From: an uncultured Pelagibacteraceae bacterium
Lineage (GTDB): Bacteria > Pseudomonadota > Alphaproteobacteria > Pelagibacterales > Pelagibacteraceae
Reading direction: 5' to 3'
NCBI GenBank assembly: GCA_902577525.1
Contig: CACGZG010000005.1
Coordinates: 1 to 64,000 of the forward strand
DNA length: 64,000 nt
In this document: positions 4,786 to 18,163 of the stretch, piece by piece
Numbering within the stretch: position 1 is the first letter of the stretch
How the letters are laid out: every line of letters starts with the position of its first letter
The notes under the pieces: generated by a model
Seen by the model: the letters and a program-made list of their open reading frames with translations, nothing else
Databases searched by the model: none
What the model was told of the DNA's origin: nothing
Position numbers and translations under genes: made by a program

Positions 4786-5856
4786 ATGAGTTTAGATTTT
4801 AAAAATAAATTAATTAATGGCGATAGCTTAGATGAACTAAGAAAAATTCCTGATGAGACTTTTGATTTAATTTTTGCAGACCCTCCTTATAATCTTCAAT
4901 TAAAAAATGAGCTTACAAGACCAGATAGATCTAAAGTTAGTGCAGTAAATGACAAATGGGATAAATTTGAAAATTTCAAAAAATATGATGACTTCACTTA
5001 TTCATGGTTAAGAGAATGCAAAAGGATTTTAAAAAAGAATGGAGCAATTTGGGTAATTGGAAGTTATCACAATATTTTTAGAGTTGGAACAGCAATTCAA
5101 AATTTAGGTTTTTGGATTTTAAATGATGTTATTTGGAATAAAAAAAATCCAATGCCAAATTTTAGAGGAACACGTTTTACAAATGCTCATGAAACTTTAA
5201 TATGGGCATCAAAAACTGAAAAATCAAAATATACATTTAATTATCAATCTTTAAAGTGTTTAAATGATGATCTTCAAATGAGGTCTAACTGGGAATTACC
5301 TATTTGTAACGGTTTAGAGAGATTAAAAAAGAATGGTAAAAAACTACATTCTACTCAAAAACCTGAGTCTTTACTGCACAGAATTTTATTAGCAACATCA
5401 AATAAAAATGATCTAATTTTAGATCCTTTCTTAGGATCGGGAACAACAGCTACTGTCGCAAAAAAATTAGGAAGAAACTATTACGGTATTGAAAAAAAAA
5501 AATTATATTTTAAAGCTGCTGAACAAAGATTAAAAAAAACAAAACCTATAGAAGATGATTATTTAGATACTTTGCAAAATGGTAGATCTAAGCCGAGAAT
5601 ACCTTTTGGATCATTGGTTGAATTAGGAATAATTAAACCAGGCACTACTATTTTTGATAATAAAAAGAAAATCAGTGCAAAAATTATGGCTGATGGCAGT
5701 ATCAAACATGCTCAAACTGAAGGCTCAATTCATAAAGTAGCAGCTACAATTTTAGGTGCTGAAAGCTGTAATGGATGGACCTATTGGCATTATAACTTGA
5801 ATGGAAACGCAGTTCCTATCGATCATTTAAGACAAAGATTAATTTCTAATAGTTAG
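4786..5856 (+). CDS. ccrM: CcrM-type DNA adenine-N6 methyltransferase (GANTC)
   Basis: 356 residues, the usual CcrM length. The order is that of a beta-class N6-adenine methyltransferase: catalytic DPPY in LIFADPPYNLQL near residue 30, a target-recognition region, then the SAM-binding LDPFLGSGTTATVA. The C-terminal extension (from about residue 265: RIPFGSLVELGIIKPGT ... HKVAATILGAESCNGWTYWH) is the CcrM-specific domain, which supports GANTC recognition. In alphaproteobacteria this enzyme methylates the chromosome in a cell-cycle dependent way. The promoter has its own GANTC sites. The 3' end overlaps the convergent monooxygenase gene by four bases. Confidence 0.95.
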   Translation: MSLDFKNKLINGDSLDELRKIPDETFDLIFADPPYNLQLKNELTRPDRSKVSAVNDKWDKFENFKKYDDFTYSWLRECKRILKKNGAIWVIGSYHNIFRVGTAIQNLGFWILNDVIWNKKNPMPNFRGTRFTNAHETLIWASKTEKSKYTFNYQSLKCLNDDLQMRSNWELPICNGLERLKKNGKKLHSTQKPESLLHRILLATSNKNDLILDPFLGSGTTATVAKKLGRNYYGIEKKKLYFKAAEQRLKKTKPIEDDYLDTLQNGRSKPRIPFGSLVELGIIKPGTTIFDNKKKISAKIMADGSIKHAQTEGSIHKVAATILGAESCNGWTYWHYNLNGNAVPIDHLRQRLISNS

Positions 5857-6998: not shown

Positions 6999-7978
6999 AG
7001 GTTACCCTCTAAATATTTAACAACCTTTTTTGTAAATGTAGGCAACATAGAATTACTAATTTTTTTTTGATCAACCCAATAATAAGAAGGTACATCTTTA
7101 ATATTTTTTGGATATTGAATTTTGATATTCATATTCATGTTAGACATTTTAAAATTTATAGTTTTATTAAATTTTTTTGGTTTAGATAATTCTTGCATTG
7201 GAAAAATTCTTAAGTTTTTGAGAAAGTTAAATTTTGTATTTTTAACCAATAGATATTTTTTATCTTTTTTATAAACATTTAAAACAAAATACTTATCTAT
7301 ATTTTTTTTACTATTCTTTGTAAGTTTGAAATCTTTTTTAATAAATGATTTACATTTTTTTGAGATTGGACATTTAAAACAGTTGGGACTTGTAGGTTTG
7401 CAAATCAAAGCCCCTAATTCCATTAAAGCTTGTGCATAATCGCTAGATCTTTGGGATGTACCTAATATAGATTTTTTTTTGTGCAAATTTTCCTTAGAAA
7501 TTTCTTTATCTTTTTTAAGAAATAGATATCTCTTTAAAACTCTTTCAACGTTTCCATCAAGAGGTATAAAAGGCTTATTAAATGCAATAGCTAAAATTGC
7601 ACTTGCAGTATAATTTCCAATTCCTGGCAAAGAAATTAAATCATCAAAAGTATCTGGTAATTTTCCTCGAAAGTTTTTTTTAACAACTTGAGCAGTTCTT
7701 TTTAAATTTTTTACTCTAGAATAATATCCAAGACCTTCCCAGAGTTTATAAAGTTTTTTGTCATTAGTTTTAGCAAGTGAATTGAGATTTGGGATATTTT
7801 TAATGAAATGATTAAAATAAGGAATGACTGTTGCAACCTGAGTTTGTTGTAACATAAACTCACTTACTAATGTAAAATATTGTTTTTTGACGGGTGAAAC
7901 ATTTTTTCGCCATGGTAGTGATCTTTTATTTAAATCATACCAATTTAGAATTTTTTTTGTTACAAATTGTTCTCTCAT
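6995..7978 (-). CDS. mutY: A/G-specific adenine DNA glycosylase
   Basis: Removes adenine mispaired with 8-oxoguanine. Start MREQFVTKKILNWYDLNKR matches MutY N-termini; a TTG-initiated extension to 8023 is unlikely. The helix-hairpin-helix is LISLPGIGNYTASAILAIAF, followed by the catalytic Asp in PLDGNVERVLKR. Iron-sulfur ligands are intact: C-x6-C-x2-C-x5-C in CKPTSPNCFKCPISKKC. The C-terminal NUDIX-like domain is short and divergent. The start codon is the minus strand of CATATG whose plus strand starts the DciA-like gene. Confidence 0.94.
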   Translation of the reverse strand: MREQFVTKKILNWYDLNKRSLPWRKNVSPVKKQYFTLVSEFMLQQTQVATVIPYFNHFIKNIPNLNSLAKTNDKKLYKLWEGLGYYSRVKNLKRTAQVVKKNFRGKLPDTFDDLISLPGIGNYTASAILAIAFNKPFIPLDGNVERVLKRYLFLKKDKEISKENLHKKKSILGTSQRSSDYAQALMELGALICKPTSPNCFKCPISKKCKSFIKKDFKLTKNSKKNIDKYFVLNVYKKDKKYLLVKNTKFNFLKNLRIFPMQELSKPKKFNKTINFKMSNMNMNIKIQYPKNIKDVPSYYWVDQKKISNSMLPTFTKKVVKYLEGNL

Positions 7979-8467
7979 ATGCAATATAAAAAATATATTA
8001 AGCAGAGATCTGTTAGCATTCAAGGATTAAGGTCCTTTAAGGACACATTGCCAAAAAATATCAAAAAAGTTATTTATAAAAGAGGCCAGATTTATTCTGA
8101 AACACTAAATAATTGGAAGCATATTGTTGGTGAAGATTTATTTAAAGTCTGTTACCCAAAATCTTTTAAAAATTCAAATAAGTTTAATGTTGGTACGCTT
8201 GTGATTATGGTGCAAAGAGGTCATGAAACTGAACTTGAATATTCAAAAAAGAAAATATTAGATAAAATGAATTTTTTTTTTAAAACTGAAGTTGTTAAAC
8301 GAGTAAAATTTATAAGTTTTAATGATGAGTCTAGAAATGATGAGAAGATGAAAATGCTAAATCCTAATGTGACAAATAATAAATACAAATATAAGATTAA
8401 TGATGTTAAAAATGAAAAAATTAAAAAATCACTTTTAGAATTAACGAAAGTCTTTAAAGAAAAATGA
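7979..8467 (+). CDS. DUF721 / DciA-like protein (candidate helicase loader)
   Basis: 162 residues from the ATG at 7979, the plus-strand half of CATATG shared with mutY. The region KKVIYKRGQIYSETLNNW, KHIVGEDLFKVCYPKSF and GTLVIMVQRGHETELEYSKK is a DUF721 domain: Trp-x2-IVG, then a KH-like beta segment. DciA proteins of this family load the replicative helicase DnaB in bacteria lacking DnaC; that role is inferred. The C-terminus is lysine-rich and disordered-looking. It overlaps the next gene (DsbA-like) by four bases (ATGA). Confidence 0.78.
   Translation: MQYKKYIKQRSVSIQGLRSFKDTLPKNIKKVIYKRGQIYSETLNNWKHIVGEDLFKVCYPKSFKNSNKFNVGTLVIMVQRGHETELEYSKKKILDKMNFFFKTEVVKRVKFISFNDESRNDEKMKMLNPNVTNNKYKYKINDVKNEKIKKSLLELTKVFKEK
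7995..8023 (-). promoter_or_regulatory. Candidate mutY promoter inside the dciA-like coding region
   Basis: On the minus strand TTGAAT (8018-8023), a 17-base spacer and TAATAT (7995-8000) make a near-consensus sigma-70 promoter. It would give mutY mRNA with a leader of about ten bases. The element lies wholly within codons of the head-to-head DciA-like gene. Confidence 0.5.
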
Positions 8468-9047: not shown

Positions 9048-11444
9048 ATGGAGTTTAAAAAAATCCAATTAAATGGATTTAAATCTTTTGCTGATAAAAC
9101 TAACTTCTTGATTGAAGATGGTTTAACAGGGATAGTTGGCCCAAATGGTTGTGGGAAATCCAATATAGTTGAATCTTTAAGATGGGTAATGGGAGAAACA
9201 TCTGCAAAAAGTATGAGAGGGTCTGGGATGGAAGATGTAATATTTTCAGGAACTTCAAACAAACCTTCCAAAAACATTGCTGAGGTTTCTGTAACTGTTT
9301 CCAATGATGATAATGAGGGTCCGATACAGTTTAGAGAACTGAATGAAATTAATGTGAGAAGAAAAATAGAAAAAGACAAAGGATCAAAATTTTATATAAA
9401 TGACAAAGAAGTAAGATCAAGAGATGCTCAAATGTTCTTTGCTGATTTATCTACAGGTGCTCACTCACCATCTATGATTAGTCAAGGTCGGATTGGAGCA
9501 CTTGTTACTGCAAAACCTACTGATAGAAGAGCAATTTTAGAAGAGGCAGCTGGTATTTCTGGTCTTCATGTGAGAAGACATGAAGCAGAATTGAGATTAA
9601 ATGCTGCAGAAAATAATTTAAAAAGAGCTGATGAGCTTAGAAAACAACAAGAAAAGCAATTAGCAAATCTGCAAAAACAAGCAGAAGAGGCTACAAAATA
9701 TAAAAATATCACTGATGAAATTAAAAAAATAGAAGCGGGATTGTATTATTTAAAATTATTAGAGATTGATAAAGAAATTAGAATTGAAAATGAAATAAAT
9801 ACTGAAGCTGAGACAGAGGTGAGTGGTTTTAATAATAGAATTAATGAGTTAGAAAATCTAATAAAATTAGAAACTGATAAAGTCACACCTTTGCGAGAGA
9901 AAAATATTGAAAATTTATCAAAAATACAAAGGCTAAACTTAGAGCTTCAAAATCTTGATGAAGAAAACAATAGAATTCAAGATGAAATTAAGAATATAAA
10001 AGACTCTCTTCAAACTTTTGATGACGATATCATTAGAGAAAAAGGAATAGTAATTGATGCTAACTCAAATGAAAAAAGACTTAAAGAAGAAAAAAATGAA
10101 CTAATAGAAATTGATTCAAAATATTATCAAACTGAAAAACAATCTAAAGACGATTTAGACAATGCAAAAAATAGACTTAATTCAGAGATAGATAATATAA
10201 AAAAATTAATCGCCTCTAAAAAAAATGAAGAAGCAATATCAATTCTAAATAACTGTACAGTCTTAATTGAGGAATATGCGGATAGTTATAGCAAAAATCA
10301 AAATATCAAAAAAGAGTCAGTTAAAAGAAATGAAAGAATAAGTGTAATAGATAAAGAAATTGAAAGCTGGAAAAATTTATTATCAAATTCTGAAAAAATG
10401 TTAATCGAATTAAATGAGAGAAAAAGTAAACTTAATTTACAGTTAGATAAATTAGATAATCAACCAAAAATACAAGCAGAAAAAAAAGGACAAATTTCTG
10501 AAAATTTAAGAATTTCTGAAGAAGAAAAAAAAGAGAATGAGTCAATTATCAGCATAACTGATGAAAAAATTGAAACTTTAAGAAATAAACTAAATGAGAT
10601 ACAGGAACAATCAATCCAAATTCGAGAACGTAAAGCCAGTTCGGGTGCTACAATAGAAGGTCTTAAAAAAAGAAAAAATGATCTAGTAGATAGGATAACT
10701 TCAGAGCTTAACTTAAACGAAGAAAATATTTTAGAAAATTCCAATTTATATGGTAAAGATGAGCTTCCCGATGCTGTTAATCAAGAGGATCTATTAGATA
10801 AAAAGAAACAAGAAAGAGAAAAGTTGGGTTCAGTAAATCTTAAAGCTGATGAGGAAACAAACAAATATGAGGCTGAAATTAAAAAAATGGAACAAGATAG
10901 AGAAGATTTAGTTACTGCAATATTGAAATTAAAAGAAAGTATTAATGAGCTGAATCAAAAAGGAAGAGAAAGATTAATTGAAGCTTTTGACAAAGTTAAT
11001 AGAAAATTTAATGAAGTTTATACTAGATTGTTTAATGGAGGAAATGCAAAACTTGAATTGGTTGATTCTGACGATCCGCTTGAAGCTGGATTGGAAATGC
11101 TTGTAAGTCCTCCTGGAAAAAGACTTCAATCTATAACATTACTATCCGGAGGCGAACAAGCTTTAACGGCTCTTTCATTAATTTTTGCAGTTTTTTTAAC
11201 TAATCCATCCCCTATTTGTGTTTTAGATGAAGTAGATGCTCCTTTAGATGATGCTAATGTTACAAGATTTTGTAACTTGCTTGAGGAACTAACCAAAATT
11301 ACCAATACAAAATTTATAATCGTTACACACCATGCTTTAACAATGTCTAAAATGAATAGATTATATGGTGTTACAATGCCTGAAAAAGGCATCAGTCAAC
11401 TTGTAGCTGTTGATTTACAAAAAGCAGAAAGTATGGTTGCTTAA
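9048..11444 (+). CDS. smc: SMC-family chromosome segregation ATPase, short and without a recognisable hinge
   Basis: 798 residues against about 1150-1190 for usual bacterial SMC. The N-terminal head has GFKSFADKT, Walker A GPNGCGKSN (about 32-40) and GRIGALVTAKPTDRRAILEE. The C-terminal head has VSPPGKRLQSITLLSGGEQA (about 690-705), Walker B ICVLDEVDAPLDDANV and a D-loop/H-loop IIVTHHALTM. Between them is heptad-type coiled coil, but nothing resembling the hinge (no G-V-x-G-x-[VI] entry, no A-L-G motif, no G-G-S-x-T-G exit). A short break near residues 375-425 (IASKKNEEAISILNNCTVLI) may be the turn between arms. Both ATPase halves are intact, so this is not decay. Confidence 0.88.
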   Translation: MEFKKIQLNGFKSFADKTNFLIEDGLTGIVGPNGCGKSNIVESLRWVMGETSAKSMRGSGMEDVIFSGTSNKPSKNIAEVSVTVSNDDNEGPIQFRELNEINVRRKIEKDKGSKFYINDKEVRSRDAQMFFADLSTGAHSPSMISQGRIGALVTAKPTDRRAILEEAAGISGLHVRRHEAELRLNAAENNLKRADELRKQQEKQLANLQKQAEEATKYKNITDEIKKIEAGLYYLKLLEIDKEIRIENEINTEAETEVSGFNNRINELENLIKLETDKVTPLREKNIENLSKIQRLNLELQNLDEENNRIQDEIKNIKDSLQTFDDDIIREKGIVIDANSNEKRLKEEKNELIEIDSKYYQTEKQSKDDLDNAKNRLNSEIDNIKKLIASKKNEEAISILNNCTVLIEEYADSYSKNQNIKKESVKRNERISVIDKEIESWKNLLSNSEKMLIELNERKSKLNLQLDKLDNQPKIQAEKKGQISENLRISEEEKKENESIISITDEKIETLRNKLNEIQEQSIQIRERKASSGATIEGLKKRKNDLVDRITSELNLNEENILENSNLYGKDELPDAVNQEDLLDKKKQEREKLGSVNLKADEETNKYEAEIKKMEQDREDLVTAILKLKESINELNQKGRERLIEAFDKVNRKFNEVYTRLFNGGNAKLELVDSDDPLEAGLEMLVSPPGKRLQSITLLSGGEQALTALSLIFAVFLTNPSPICVLDEVDAPLDDANVTRFCNLLEELTKITNTKFIIVTHHALTMSKMNRLYGVTMPEKGISQLVAVDLQKAESMVA

Positions 11445-13846: not shown

Positions 13847-15307
13847 ATGAATTCTATAGTAATTGGTTCTGGTTTTGGAGGTATTGCTGCTGCTCTACGT
13901 CTTAAAGCAAAAGGACATGATGTAACTTTGATAGAAAAACATCCAGATCTTGGTGGTAGAGCTAGAGTATTTAAGAAAAATGGTTTTATTTATGATGGTG
14001 GGCCAACTGTAATTACTGCTCCCTACTTAATTAATGAGTTATTCGAATTATTTAAGAAAGATCCTAAAGATTACATTAAGCTTTCTCCTCTTAAGATTTG
14101 GTATCAGTTTATTTTTGAAGATAAAACAAAATTTAATTACTCAGGGGATGAGAATGAAATGAAAAGACAAATTGAGAAATTAAATAAGAATGATGTTGAA
14201 GGCTACGTAAAATTAGTAAATTTTACTAAAAAAATTTTCGATAAAGGTTTTACTGAATTAGCTGATGTACCATTTGATAGACCATTAGTGATGGCACAAC
14301 AATTGCCTGCTCTTTTAAAACTTAAAAGCTACAAGTCAGTTTATTCATTAGTTTCATCATATATAAAAAATGAAAAATTGAGAAGAATTTTAAGTATGCA
14401 CCCATTGCTTGTTGGGGGTAATCCTTTTACAACAACATCAATTTATGGATTAATTTTATATTTAGAAAAAAAATGGGGAATACATTATTCGATGGGAGGA
14501 ACTGGAAATATTATAAAAGGCTTTGAAAGATTAATGGACGAGGAGGGAATAAAGATAATCAGAGGTCATGAAGTAACAAAAATAATTTCAGATAAAAAAA
14601 AAATAACTGGTGTTCAACTTAACGATCAAACTATATTACAGTCTAATTATGTCATTTGTAATGCAGATCCACCTGATGTTTATGAAAAAATGTTGAATGG
14701 AAGCACAAATAATTCTTTTCTTTTTAAATGGAAAAAAAATCGAATGGAATATTCAATGGGTTTATTTGTTTATTACTTTGGCACTAAAGTAAAATATGAA
14801 AATGTAGAACATCATACAATTAAGTTTGGCAACAAATATAAAGAACATTTAGATGATATATTTGATAATAAAAAGTTAAATAATGATATTAGTTATTATC
14901 TACACAGACCATCTTCAACTGATAAATCTATGGCACCTGAAGGAAATGATTGTTTTTATGTACTTGTGCCTGTTCCAAATAATCAATCAAAAATTGATTG
15001 GACTGTAGAGGGAGAAAAAATGAAAAATTTAGTAATCAGTAAAATGCAAAATGATTTAATGCCTAATCTTAAAAATAATATTGTTGAGGATTTTTATTTA
15101 ACCCCAGATTACTTTGAAAAAGATTTAAACACCAAATATGGTTCTGGTTTTTCAATTCAACCAAAATTTTCTCAATCAGCTTATTTTAGATTCCATAACA
15201 AATCTGAAATTTATAAGGGGCTTTATTTTGTAGGAGCAGGTACTCATCCAGGTGCTGGTGTGCCTGGCGTTCTTTCATCAGCAAAAGTATTAGATAAAAT
15301 TTTATAA
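13847..15307 (+). CDS. crtI: Phytoene desaturase (CrtI type)
   Basis: 486 residues. FAD-binding N-terminus SIVIGSGFGGIAAALRLKAK with VTLIEKHPDLGGRARVF and the substrate-side YDGGPTVITAPYL. The C-terminal CrtI signature is at GLYFVGAGTHPGAGVPGVLS. Converts phytoene to lycopene in the membrane. First gene of a crtI-crtB-crtY-blh run 39 bases behind the F0 operon, with no terminator visible between, so read-through from atp genes is possible. Confidence 0.96.
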   Translation: MNSIVIGSGFGGIAAALRLKAKGHDVTLIEKHPDLGGRARVFKKNGFIYDGGPTVITAPYLINELFELFKKDPKDYIKLSPLKIWYQFIFEDKTKFNYSGDENEMKRQIEKLNKNDVEGYVKLVNFTKKIFDKGFTELADVPFDRPLVMAQQLPALLKLKSYKSVYSLVSSYIKNEKLRRILSMHPLLVGGNPFTTTSIYGLILYLEKKWGIHYSMGGTGNIIKGFERLMDEEGIKIIRGHEVTKIISDKKKITGVQLNDQTILQSNYVICNADPPDVYEKMLNGSTNNSFLFKWKKNRMEYSMGLFVYYFGTKVKYENVEHHTIKFGNKYKEHLDDIFDNKKLNNDISYYLHRPSSTDKSMAPEGNDCFYVLVPVPNNQSKIDWTVEGEKMKNLVISKMQNDLMPNLKNNIVEDFYLTPDYFEKDLNTKYGSGFSIQPKFSQSAYFRFHNKSEIYKGLYFVGAGTHPGAGVPGVLSSAKVLDKIL

Positions 15308-16158
15308 TGTCAAATAAAAGTTACTTGTCTGTTTATGCTAAATCATTTAGTTGGGCTGGTTTTTTTTTACCAAAAAAAACACTCAATAAATGTTCAAACT
15401 TATATGATTTTTGCAGAGTTGTAGACAACTTAGCAGATGATGAAGAAAAGATTGGAAACAAAGAAAAAAAATTTAATCAATTCGAGAAGGATTTTAATCA
15501 AAAAAACTTTAATAATCCTATTATCAAAAATATGTGGGATCTCATTGAGGAATTTAATATATCTTTGAAGATTGTTCACGATTTATTGATTGGGATAAAA
15601 TCAGACATAAAAGAAAGTGTTAAATTAAATTCAAAAAAAGATTTGCTAATTTATTCATACAGAGTGGCTGGGACAGTTGGGCTTATGATGGCAAAAATTT
15701 TAAGAGTAAGTAAAAAAAGTTCACTTAAATCAGCTATCGATCTTGGTATAGCAATGCAACTTACCAATATATCAAGAGATGTGGTAGAGGACTTTAAAAA
15801 TAACCGTTCTTACATAGACAAAAATTTTGAAAAAATTTCATCAACTGTCAATTTGGCTGAAACTTTCTATGAAAGTTCTTTTTATTCAATAAAAGATATA
15901 CCAATAAGTTTTCGTTTTTCAATTTTAGTTGCAAGAAGAGTTTATAGAAAAATAGGACATAAAATTCTTAATAAAAAAAACTTAAATAACTATCAAAATT
16001 CAGGAAAAATATATGTTTCTAATGCAGAAAAGATCTTGGAGACTTTCTTTTCAATTATTGACTTAATTAAACTATCATTCGTTTATAAAAAAGATGAGCA
16101 AATAAAACACGATCATAATTTGATAAATGAAGAAATTAATTTAGATGAAAGAATTTGA
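15307..16158 (+). CDS. crtB: Phytoene synthase
   Basis: 283 residues. Condenses two geranylgeranyl-PP to phytoene. The first Asp-rich motif is FCRVVDNLADDEE and the second is in QLTNISRDVVEDFKNNRSYI. SYRVAGTVGLMMAKIL is the conserved middle helix. The start overlaps the crtI stop by one base (TAATG). Confidence 0.95.
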   Translation: MSNKSYLSVYAKSFSWAGFFLPKKTLNKCSNLYDFCRVVDNLADDEEKIGNKEKKFNQFEKDFNQKNFNNPIIKNMWDLIEEFNISLKIVHDLLIGIKSDIKESVKLNSKKDLLIYSYRVAGTVGLMMAKILRVSKKSSLKSAIDLGIAMQLTNISRDVVEDFKNNRSYIDKNFEKISSTVNLAETFYESSFYSIKDIPISFRFSILVARRVYRKIGHKILNKKNLNNYQNSGKIYVSNAEKILETFFSIIDLIKLSFVYKKDEQIKHDHNLINEEINLDERI

Positions 16159-17212
16159 TTTTATTATTATTGGTGGTGGTTGTGCCGGTTTATCACTTGC
16201 ATATGAATTAGAAATCAACGAAAAATTAAAGGATAAAACTTTAGCCATTGTTGAACCAAGACTAGAATATAAAAGAGATAAAACATGGTCTTTCTGGAAA
16301 GTAGTGCCCCACAATTTTGAAGATTGTGTTAAAAAAAACTGGCAAAATTTTTCAATCAACATTCCAGGTAAAACCAATTATCTAGAATGTAAAGATTATC
16401 CATACCAAAGTATTGATAGTAGTTTATTTTATGCAAAAATAAATAATGAACTAAAAAAAAATAAAAATATTTATTTCTATAAAGATTTAAAAGAAATCAA
16501 TACAAGAAATTCATTTACCTTCAATAGTGTACCAAATATAAAAAAAAATCATCTTAATCTTTGGCAACATTTTTGTGGTGTAGAAATTGAGACTAAAACT
16601 AATTATTTTGATGATGAAATTTTTAATCTAATGGACTTTGATTGCGAACAAAGGGATAGTGTTCATTTTTTTTATACACTTCCCTATTCAAAAAATAAGG
16701 CTCTAGTTGAAACAACTTGGCTATCAAGAATGAATGACAACTCTCAAAAGGACTATAATAAGCAAATTAAAGATTACATTGATAAACATCTTAAAATTAA
16801 AGATTACGAAATCACATACAGAGAAGAAGGTGCTATTCCCCTATTCTATCCATCCTACGAAAAAGAAAAAAATAGAATAAATATTGGAACTGCTGGTGGT
16901 ATGACAAGACTAAGCACTGGATATACTTTTTTAAATATTCAAGAACATAGTAAATTTATTAGTAAAAATATTGAAAATATTCATCATACTAAAAAATTTG
17001 AAATTAATAAAAAATATCAATTTTTGGATGAAATATTTTTACGTGTTCTTAAAAAACACCCAAAAAAAATGCCAGAAATTTTTTTTAAAATGTTTCAAAG
17101 TTCACCCAAAACAATTATCAAATTTCTTTCCAATAAAAGTAATTTTCTTGAAGATTTGACTATAATTTTAAAAATGCCAAAATGGATTTTTATTAAAGCT
17201 TTATTTTATTAA
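16145..17212 (+). CDS. crtY: Lycopene beta-cyclase (CrtY type)
   Basis: 355 residues. The N-terminal flavin/dinucleotide fold FDFIIIGGGCAGLSLAYELE is followed by DKTWSFWKVVPHNFE. The middle has ALVETTWLSRM, and GTAGGMTRLSTGYTFLNIQE carries the CrtY signature. Closes both ends of lycopene to beta-carotene. It overlaps crtB by 14 bases. Confidence 0.93.
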   Translation: MKEFDFIIIGGGCAGLSLAYELEINEKLKDKTLAIVEPRLEYKRDKTWSFWKVVPHNFEDCVKKNWQNFSINIPGKTNYLECKDYPYQSIDSSLFYAKINNELKKNKNIYFYKDLKEINTRNSFTFNSVPNIKKNHLNLWQHFCGVEIETKTNYFDDEIFNLMDFDCEQRDSVHFFYTLPYSKNKALVETTWLSRMNDNSQKDYNKQIKDYIDKHLKIKDYEITYREEGAIPLFYPSYEKEKNRINIGTAGGMTRLSTGYTFLNIQEHSKFISKNIENIHHTKKFEINKKYQFLDEIFLRVLKKHPKKMPEIFFKMFQSSPKTIIKFLSNKSNFLEDLTIILKMPKWIFIKALFY

Positions 17213-17218
17213 ACCTAA

Positions 17219-18163
17219 ATGAATATCAATCTAAAAAAAATAAATCTAAATCATTCTTTTATTTTTTTTTTATTCTGTAATATTTTTTCTTTAATACTGT
17301 TCAAATTTAACAACTTTATATTGTCACCATTATTTTGTTTATTTTTGATTTTAATCATTGGTGTATCACATGGATCTTTGGATCATGTTAAAGGTGGGAA
17401 ACTTCTAAAGATTTTTAAAATTGAAAATATAGCTCTATTTTATATTTCATATATCTTAATAGCTGTAATTGTAATATCACTTTGGATTTTAATGCCGTCT
17501 ATCTTGTTAATAATATTTCTTCTGGTTGCTTCATATCATTTTGGTAAAGAGGATACACAATTCTTGCATGATTATAATTCACACTTTATGGGAATATTAT
17601 ATTTCCTAAAAGGATCTCTTGTTATTTTGGCACCATTGTATTTTCATTTTAATGAAACCATAGCAATATTTAAATTATTATTAATTGATAATGAGAATTT
17701 TAATTCAAGTTTAAGTTTTATTGAAAATAATAGATTAATAGATTTGATGATAATTTTAAGCTCCATTTCAAGTATTATTTTGTTTATTAAAAAATTTAAT
17801 TTAAGAAATTTTTCTATTTTTTTTGATTATTTTTCTATATTAATTTTAAATTACTATCTCTCTCCTTTGATTGCATTTACTGCTTATTTTTGCTTTTTAC
17901 ATTCAGTAAGACATAGTATGACATTAATTTATGAATTAGATAACGATAATATAAAAAATGGTTTGTTGATTTTTATTAAAAAAGCTATGCCACTTACTGT
18001 ATTAACTGCAGCTATTTGTTTTATTGGTATTTATTTACTCAATTTAAAATATGAATTTAATAACTCAATTGTTAAAGTCATATTTATAGGTTTGGCGTCT
18101 TTAACATTTCCACATATATTACTCGAGTATCTTTTAGATAAAAATGAAAAACAAAGAACTTAA
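17219..18163 (+). CDS. blh: Beta-carotene 15,15'-dioxygenase, Brp/Blh family
   Basis: 314 residues, polytopic membrane protein with about eight hydrophobic segments. Conserved iron-binding histidines are visible in GVSHGSLDHVKGGK, VASYHFGKEDTQF and FLHSVRHSMTL. Cleaves beta-carotene to two retinals, the chromophore of microbial rhodopsins. No rhodopsin gene is in the window. The gene ends crtIBY-blh and overlaps ispH by 20 bases. Confidence 0.92.
   Translation: MNINLKKINLNHSFIFFLFCNIFSLILFKFNNFILSPLFCLFLILIIGVSHGSLDHVKGGKLLKIFKIENIALFYISYILIAVIVISLWILMPSILLIIFLLVASYHFGKEDTQFLHDYNSHFMGILYFLKGSLVILAPLYFHFNETIAIFKLLLIDNENFNSSLSFIENNRLIDLMIILSSISSIILFIKKFNLRNFSIFFDYFSILILNYYLSPLIAFTAYFCFLHSVRHSMTLIYELDNDNIKNGLLIFIKKAMPLTVLTAAICFIGIYLLNLKYEFNNSIVKVIFIGLASLTFPHILLEYLLDKNEKQRT

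Follow-up and report, generated by a model that had tools for sequence, protein, structure and literature searches.

A hinge-less SMC protein encoded across the SAR11 order (Pelagibacterales)

The window analysed here (the whole stretch of 64,000 nucleotides, positions 1 to 64,000 of the forward strand of contig CACGZG010000005.1, assembly GCA_902577525.1, from an uncultured Pelagibacteraceae bacterium) contains an intact open reading frame that encodes an SMC protein of 798 amino acids (smc; Table 1). The protein is matched by the bacterial SMC equivalog model TIGR02168 at 675.1 bits (cut-off 567.35), as compared to 45.9 bits for the best of the Rad50 family models, and its Pfam matches comprise SMC_N, several AAA families and one weak chance match. 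The nucleotide-binding motifs of both ATPase head halves (Walker A, ABC signature, Walker B and D-loop) are invariant in 49 aligned rows, which bears out the preliminary description, in which the heads were read as intact and the gene as not decayed. The nearest named relatives are Pelagibacteraceae/Pelagibacterales (SAR11), and the best 80 of 452 loci all match residues 1-798; the SMC frames of three relatives (L015, L020 and L177) carry in-frame stops, which are perhaps sequencing errors. A search of the whole host genome (1.14 Mb, 30 contigs, 90% complete) with the SMC_N profile recovered no second SMC, the existence of which had been raised as a point to check. The other SMC_N match over the cut-off (C5:33663) reads by eye as an ABC exporter and was rejected as a second SMC, and ten further matches were weaker still. 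In the neighbourhood of smc, the window encodes a DNA methyltransferase (4786-5856; N6_N4_Mtase with a C-terminal RAMA domain), which we take to be of the CcrM type, a DciA-family protein two genes upstream of smc (7967-8467), presumably a replicative helicase loader, and putative genes of carotenoid/retinal synthesis (13847-18163; crtI, crtB, crtY and blh-like by eye), which stand downstream of ATP synthase genes (also by eye).

Table 1. Features of the smc gene in the window (positions are those of the window, residues those of the encoded protein).
Feature	Residues	Position	Strand	Basis
smc, hinge-less SMC, sole SMC found in the genome		9048..11444	+	ORF; TIGR02168 675.1 bits
Walker A, GPNGCGKSN	31-39	9138..9164	+	read directly; invariant in 49 aligned rows
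Outgoing arm helix	172-389	9561..10214	+	AF2 model m5c8557166944; block pLDDT 75-91 from residue 181
Conserved distal-arm block	331-372	10038..10163	+	pN/pS 0.146; invariant runs
Tip hairpin, in place of distal arms and hinge	373-406	10164..10265	+	AF2 bare hairpin; entropy 1.49 bits; pN/pS 0.498
Tip turn	390-392	10215-10223	+	AF2
Return arm, breaks near 471 and 555-575	393-640	10224..10967	+	AF2 secondary structure
Conserved distal-arm block, return helix, with W441	407-450	10266..10397	+	pN/pS 0.141; colinear with L050 from residue 761
ABC signature, LLSGGEQ	698-704	11139..11159	+	invariant in 49 aligned rows
Walker B and D-loop, ICVLDEVDAPLDD	723-735	11214..11252	+	invariant in 49 aligned rows

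The 798-residue protein has no detectable hinge. The hinge family PF06470, an expected feature of bacterial Smc, did not match it at E up to 10 (the HMMER filters drop most matches above about 0.1), so that the search of the middle region, named beforehand as able to overturn the claim of a missing hinge domain, left that claim standing. Nor did PF06470 match over its cut-off in any of the 147 genomes of the order. Sub-threshold matches (E<=1) occurred in 11 of the 147, in frames of 99-747 aa; the 747-aa frame reads by eye as the initiation factor IF-2, and the other ten (99, 404 and 474-524 aa) are too short for an SMC and were treated as chance. PF06470 is a weak test within the class, since it matched only 143 of 289 class genomes at E<=0.01 and missed the Caulobacter control, which led us to train a separate hinge HMM, specific to this class, on six of its canonical SMCs. 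This model detected all nine held-out canonical rows (8 different genes; E 3.5e-42 to 4e-60) as well as the hinge of five divergent short SMCs from other lineages (E 4.6e-21 to 6.1e-47), which renders its negative result in SAR11 meaningful: against 150 SAR11 SMCs the best E was 0.37. When the profiles of four alignments of the SAR11 middle region were compared with that of the hinge, the probabilities were likewise no more than 0.2-0.3%. In one family of the order (f2; loci L181-L189 except L184 and L185) a conserved tip, VEGYDDPxxWTxIFxEKFY, stands where the hinge would be. A hinge remnant in this family, as suggested by a MAFFT alignment that sets VEGYDDP..W against the hinge start, was unsupported by the hinge HMM (E 1.0-1.4 for L181, L182 and L188) and by hhalign (0.2% probability).

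When set against a canonical SMC of 1,154 residues (L050), the SAR11 protein (L010) could be followed at a constant offset on both sides of its middle (residues 33-380 at +2, residues 407-760 at +354, as checked), with no net insertion or deletion up to residue 380 and from residue 407 onwards. Some 378 canonical residues (L050 383-760: distal arms and hinge) thus correspond to 26 residues in the SAR11 SMC, and, as judged from this alignment, what is missing is the hinge and, of the arms, no more than the distal third. The shortened arms of the preliminary description are hence confirmed as regards their distal third, and the proximal parts proved colinear with L050, so that the arms are not shortened throughout. 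AlphaFold2 (input of 49 close sequences; mean pLDDT 66, pTM 0.34) modelled residues 172-389 as a single helix, followed by a turn of three residues and by a second helix that runs back from residue 393, that is to say a bare helical hairpin. As the heads were poorly predicted (block pLDDT 27-64, as compared to mostly 75-92 for the arms), only the arms and the hairpin of the model are usable. The outgoing arm measures about 218 residues, versus roughly 323 in L050 (the hinge start being set by us). Foldseek searches of the PDB returned SMC, Rad50 and other coiled-coil proteins as top matches, with a TM too low and an rmsd too large to be informative. A Rad50-like contact of the tips, which had been proposed for the protein, is unlikely in the form of a zinc hook, given that residues 373-406 are devoid of a CXXC motif and that the single cysteine remarked on in the tip (C403) is variable, with I, L, S or F at this position in certain relatives.

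The lack of a hinge, first noted in this one genome, extends as a rule across the order: the SMC was matched in 136 of 147 genomes (9 of 10 genera; 101 of 106 if only genomes of at least 90% completeness are counted), in none of which a hinge passed the PF06470 cut-off. Frames that hold the whole protein span 799-891 codons among the matches listed, and among these same matches none approaches 1,150 residues; the comparison of lengths across SAR11, put forward as a test for an internal deletion or misassembly, hence yielded no sign of either. The 11 order genomes without a match (five of them >90% complete, namely four of the window's genus and G046) are taken as probable assembly gaps, and the tenth genus, which has no match, rests on two genomes that are 54-61% complete. 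At the level of the class, TIGR02168 matches at E<=1e-50 in 212 of 289 genomes and not in the other 77; among the matches listed, those from outside the order that cover the model lie in frames of at least 1,102 residues, and the shorter frames are partial matches, several of them at contig ends. An inspection of 25 further class genomes with split TIGR02168 matches revealed short SMCs in five, of 869 aa (three genomes, family f27), 882 aa and 936 aa, with the remainder showing frames of 1,145-1,563 residues or an SMC split between contigs or between frames (G192, G214, G251 and G363). These five short proteins (L192-L196, from G203, G392, G460, G312 and G402; 869-936 aa) bear a hinge. Shortening of the SMC is therefore also found elsewhere in the class; among genomes with a match, hinge loss is seen solely in this order.

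In a tree of the heads of 26 SMCs, the 11 from the order group as a single clade (bootstrap 100, SH-aLRT 99), apart from the canonical SMCs and from the five short ones that bear a hinge. A single SAR11 clade fits a hinge lost once, at the root of the order. By alignment and tree, the SAR11 SMC descends from an alphaproteobacterial SMC with a hinge, which was lost together with the hinge-proximal part of both arms. None of the 54 viral contig stretches that matched a peptide pattern encodes a homologue.

Within the window's genus the protein occurs in two lengths, 798 aa (114 fetched proteins, 97 distinct, some from one genome) and 857 aa (20 proteins), the latter carrying 29 additional residues before and 30 after a tip hairpin that is common to both forms. 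Of the 20 proteins of 857 aa, 12 have a tip that an HMM of the 798-form tip recognises at E<1e-4, from which we take the tip to be kept as a unit; eight were missed at this threshold, four of them (L032, L033, L035 and L037) wholly. Other genera likewise have both short and long forms (809, 811-814, 859 and 880-881 aa). The changes between the 798 and 857 forms were counted on trees of the same 44 rows (21 of the 114 proteins of 798 aa being chosen), all of them short-search trees with many weak forks. The head tree needs 7 changes, at least 3 of which are forced by well supported branches, the proximal arms need 6 (residues 170-300) and 4 (residues 481-640), and the distal arms only 1 (residues 360-430) and 2 (residues 300-480). 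This departure of the distal arm from the head tree was observed at window positions 10164-10265 and in loci L016-L038, L190 and L191. Repeated exact deletions within the genus are disfavoured by the 1-2 changes of the distal-arm trees as compared to the 7 of the head tree; the pattern suggests instead that a distal-arm allele has been exchanged between SAR11 lineages by recombination, and form-specific selection may be an alternative source of the mosaic. As regards arm length, the available text of PMC5344682 gives major modes of prokaryotic SMC arms at 238, 341 and 515 residues and reports that B. subtilis Smc with its hinge tolerated arms of 253-267 residues; the SAR11 outgoing arms of about 218 and 247 residues (247 being 218 + 29; boundaries uncertain) lie near the short mode.

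The distribution of selective constraint along the protein was estimated from 800 pairs sampled among 100 distinct 798-codon sequences, in which pS was near saturation (0.59-0.68), so that the pN/pS ratios are only comparative. Constraint was strongest in the head halves (0.088 and 0.055), followed by the distal-arm blocks 331-372 and 407-450 (0.146 and 0.141) and the arms (0.16 and 0.19), and the tip reached 0.498 and, with 1.49 bits, surpassed the other six regions compared in entropy. Core positions at or beside the tip (377, 381, 384, 387, 388, 397, 400, 407, 410 and 414) are hydrophobic in 98-100% of the sequences, and the hydrophobic content here is 0.27-0.31 per window, within the range of the arms (0.14-0.56). 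This pattern fits a bare coiled-coil hairpin, and the substitutions give no sign of a conserved tip interface. The distal-arm block, W441 included, also aligns with the arms of canonical SMCs.

The partners of a condensin are encoded alongside: the scpA and scpB genes that the preliminary description had proposed to look for are both present in the host genome, in overlapping frames (ScpA 246 aa, ScpB 233 aa), as is ParB. ScpB was found in 126 of 147 order genomes (96 of the 106 that are at least 90% complete). Pfam recognises no more than about 70 residues of the SAR11 ScpA, close to the N-terminus, and the protein falls below the NCBIfam cut-offs, yet it can be aligned along nearly its whole length.

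Taken together, these observations incline us, by a small degree, to the view that the SAR11 SMC belongs to a working Smc-ScpAB condensin held together by its heads, its kleisin and contact between its arms, with a passive tip. The protein would act as the ATPase of the complex, loaded with the help of ParB, and two chains would be joined by ATP-dependent engagement of their heads; ScpA, with ScpB, is predicted to bridge them by binding one chain at its neck and the other at its cap, and the arms would lie side by side as a rod, perhaps in contact at the conserved block 331-372 / 407-450. The tip hairpin would merely cap the arms. The hinge would be dispensed with both as a stable dimer interface and as a DNA gate, and an opening of the rod could therefore let DNA in or out between the ends of the arms. 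Since the hinge is gone and no recognisable substitute has taken its place, the two chains are most likely bonded by heads, kleisin and arms. Work on B. subtilis Smc is counted in favour of this arrangement (PMC5526789, as far as the available text goes). The accessible part of PMC5344682 further reports that the Rad50 zinc hook can replace the hinge in B. subtilis Smc; this shows that another dimeriser can serve, and not that none is needed. More tentatively, and with rather more doubt than conviction, we consider that this whole order of free-living bacteria may run its chromosome on an Smc-ScpAB without any dimerisation at the tips, as an open-ended clamp of two arms driven by heads and kleisin, whose distal arm comes in two lengths, differing by 29-30 residues in each helix, that are passed between lineages. 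If true, such a clamp would imply that closure and gating by a hinge are not needed for loading or loop extrusion.

The main rival to bonding by heads, kleisin and arms is a cryptic dimer of the tips, in which the hairpins would pair (as a four-helix bundle, in the manner of hookless Rad50 or a RecN-type contact), replace the hinge and keep the ring closed. The retention of the hairpin while arm length changes (seen in those 857 forms that the tip model recovers) speaks for it, as does the ability of foreign dimerisers to substitute for one another (PMC5344682 and PMC6969161, in the parts available). We nevertheless judge it unlikely, since conservation at the tip is the lowest among the seven regions compared, the hydrophobic content does not stand out from that of the arms, and the tip holds no CXXC and no conserved cysteine; a homodimer interface of this kind could, however, drift in sequence and so escape a test based on conservation.

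A partner protein that substitutes for the hinge at the arm ends is improbable. The low, arm-like pN/pS of the block 331-372 / 407-450 and its invariant runs (e.g. 340-349), which must include surface positions, would be in keeping with a bound partner; the same block, with W441, aligns with canonical arms, and part of its conservation therefore predates the loss of the hinge. Still less credible, and in our opinion very improbable, is that the SAR11 SMC is no longer a condensin and has become a monomeric or repair ATPase: canonical SMCs with hinge mutations are frequently crippled, which lends the idea some weight, but the protein is the sole SMC found in the host genome, is kept across the order along with ScpB, and has its strongest constraint in the head halves. 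An internal deletion or misassembly in this one genome can practically be dismissed, since the hinge-less form recurs in all of the best 80 of 452 named loci, in the many fetched proteins of exactly 798 aa and in single-contig genomes (G062 with 798 aa; G012 and G063 with 857 aa).

The hinge counts among the defining parts of SMC motors, in that it forms their stable dimer interface, and recent work considers it as a gate (PMC12647877, in the text available). SAR11, among the commonest bacteria of the ocean, have kept Smc, ScpA, ScpB and ParB and have discarded the hinge and the distal arms. Their complex may thus represent a naturally minimised condensin suited to structural work and a direct natural test of the need for tip closure. 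In comparison to canonical Smc (TIGR02168), the SAR11 protein has colinear heads and proximal arms, passes the family cut-off and is accompanied by ScpAB; it differs by the lack of the hinge and by the shorter outgoing arm. The short hinge-bearing SMCs L192-L196 are similar in total length and have their arms cut at about an equal level, but keep a hinge (at the E-values given above) and stand outside the SAR11 clade, by which they constitute a naturally occurring control for the loss of the hinge. A helical hairpin without an SMC hinge is also present in Rad50/SbcC, RecN and further hinge-less relatives of SMC. On the other hand, the SAR11 heads are of the SMC type (675 bits, versus at most 46 for Rad50 models) and there is no zinc hook.

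The closest likeness is to a hinge-less SMC reported in 2025 for a cluster of marine Actinobacteria (PMC12153180, on which we draw through the text available). The features by which it was defined there (SMC heads and arms, no hinge, no CXXC) are all found in the 798-residue protein, and both groups combine SMC heads, antiparallel arms and the lack of hinge and CXXC with a marine and abundant host. Furthermore, in the genomes screened there the actinobacterial protein was not accompanied in tandem by a regular SMC, a trait shared with the SMC of the window's genome. The main text of that report, as available, contains neither 'SAR11' nor 'Pelagibacter', and we found no report of a hinge-less SMC in SAR11 in the titles and abstracts of the literature searched (which covered few subscription journals and no bioRxiv preprints). 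The actinobacterial protein belongs to another phylum and was described from environmental clusters, whereas for SAR11 the organism, the ScpAB and ParB genes, the ancestry and the distribution across the order can be given. The colinearity of the SAR11 protein with the canonical SMCs of its own class speaks for a hinge loss separate from that of the actinobacterial clade.
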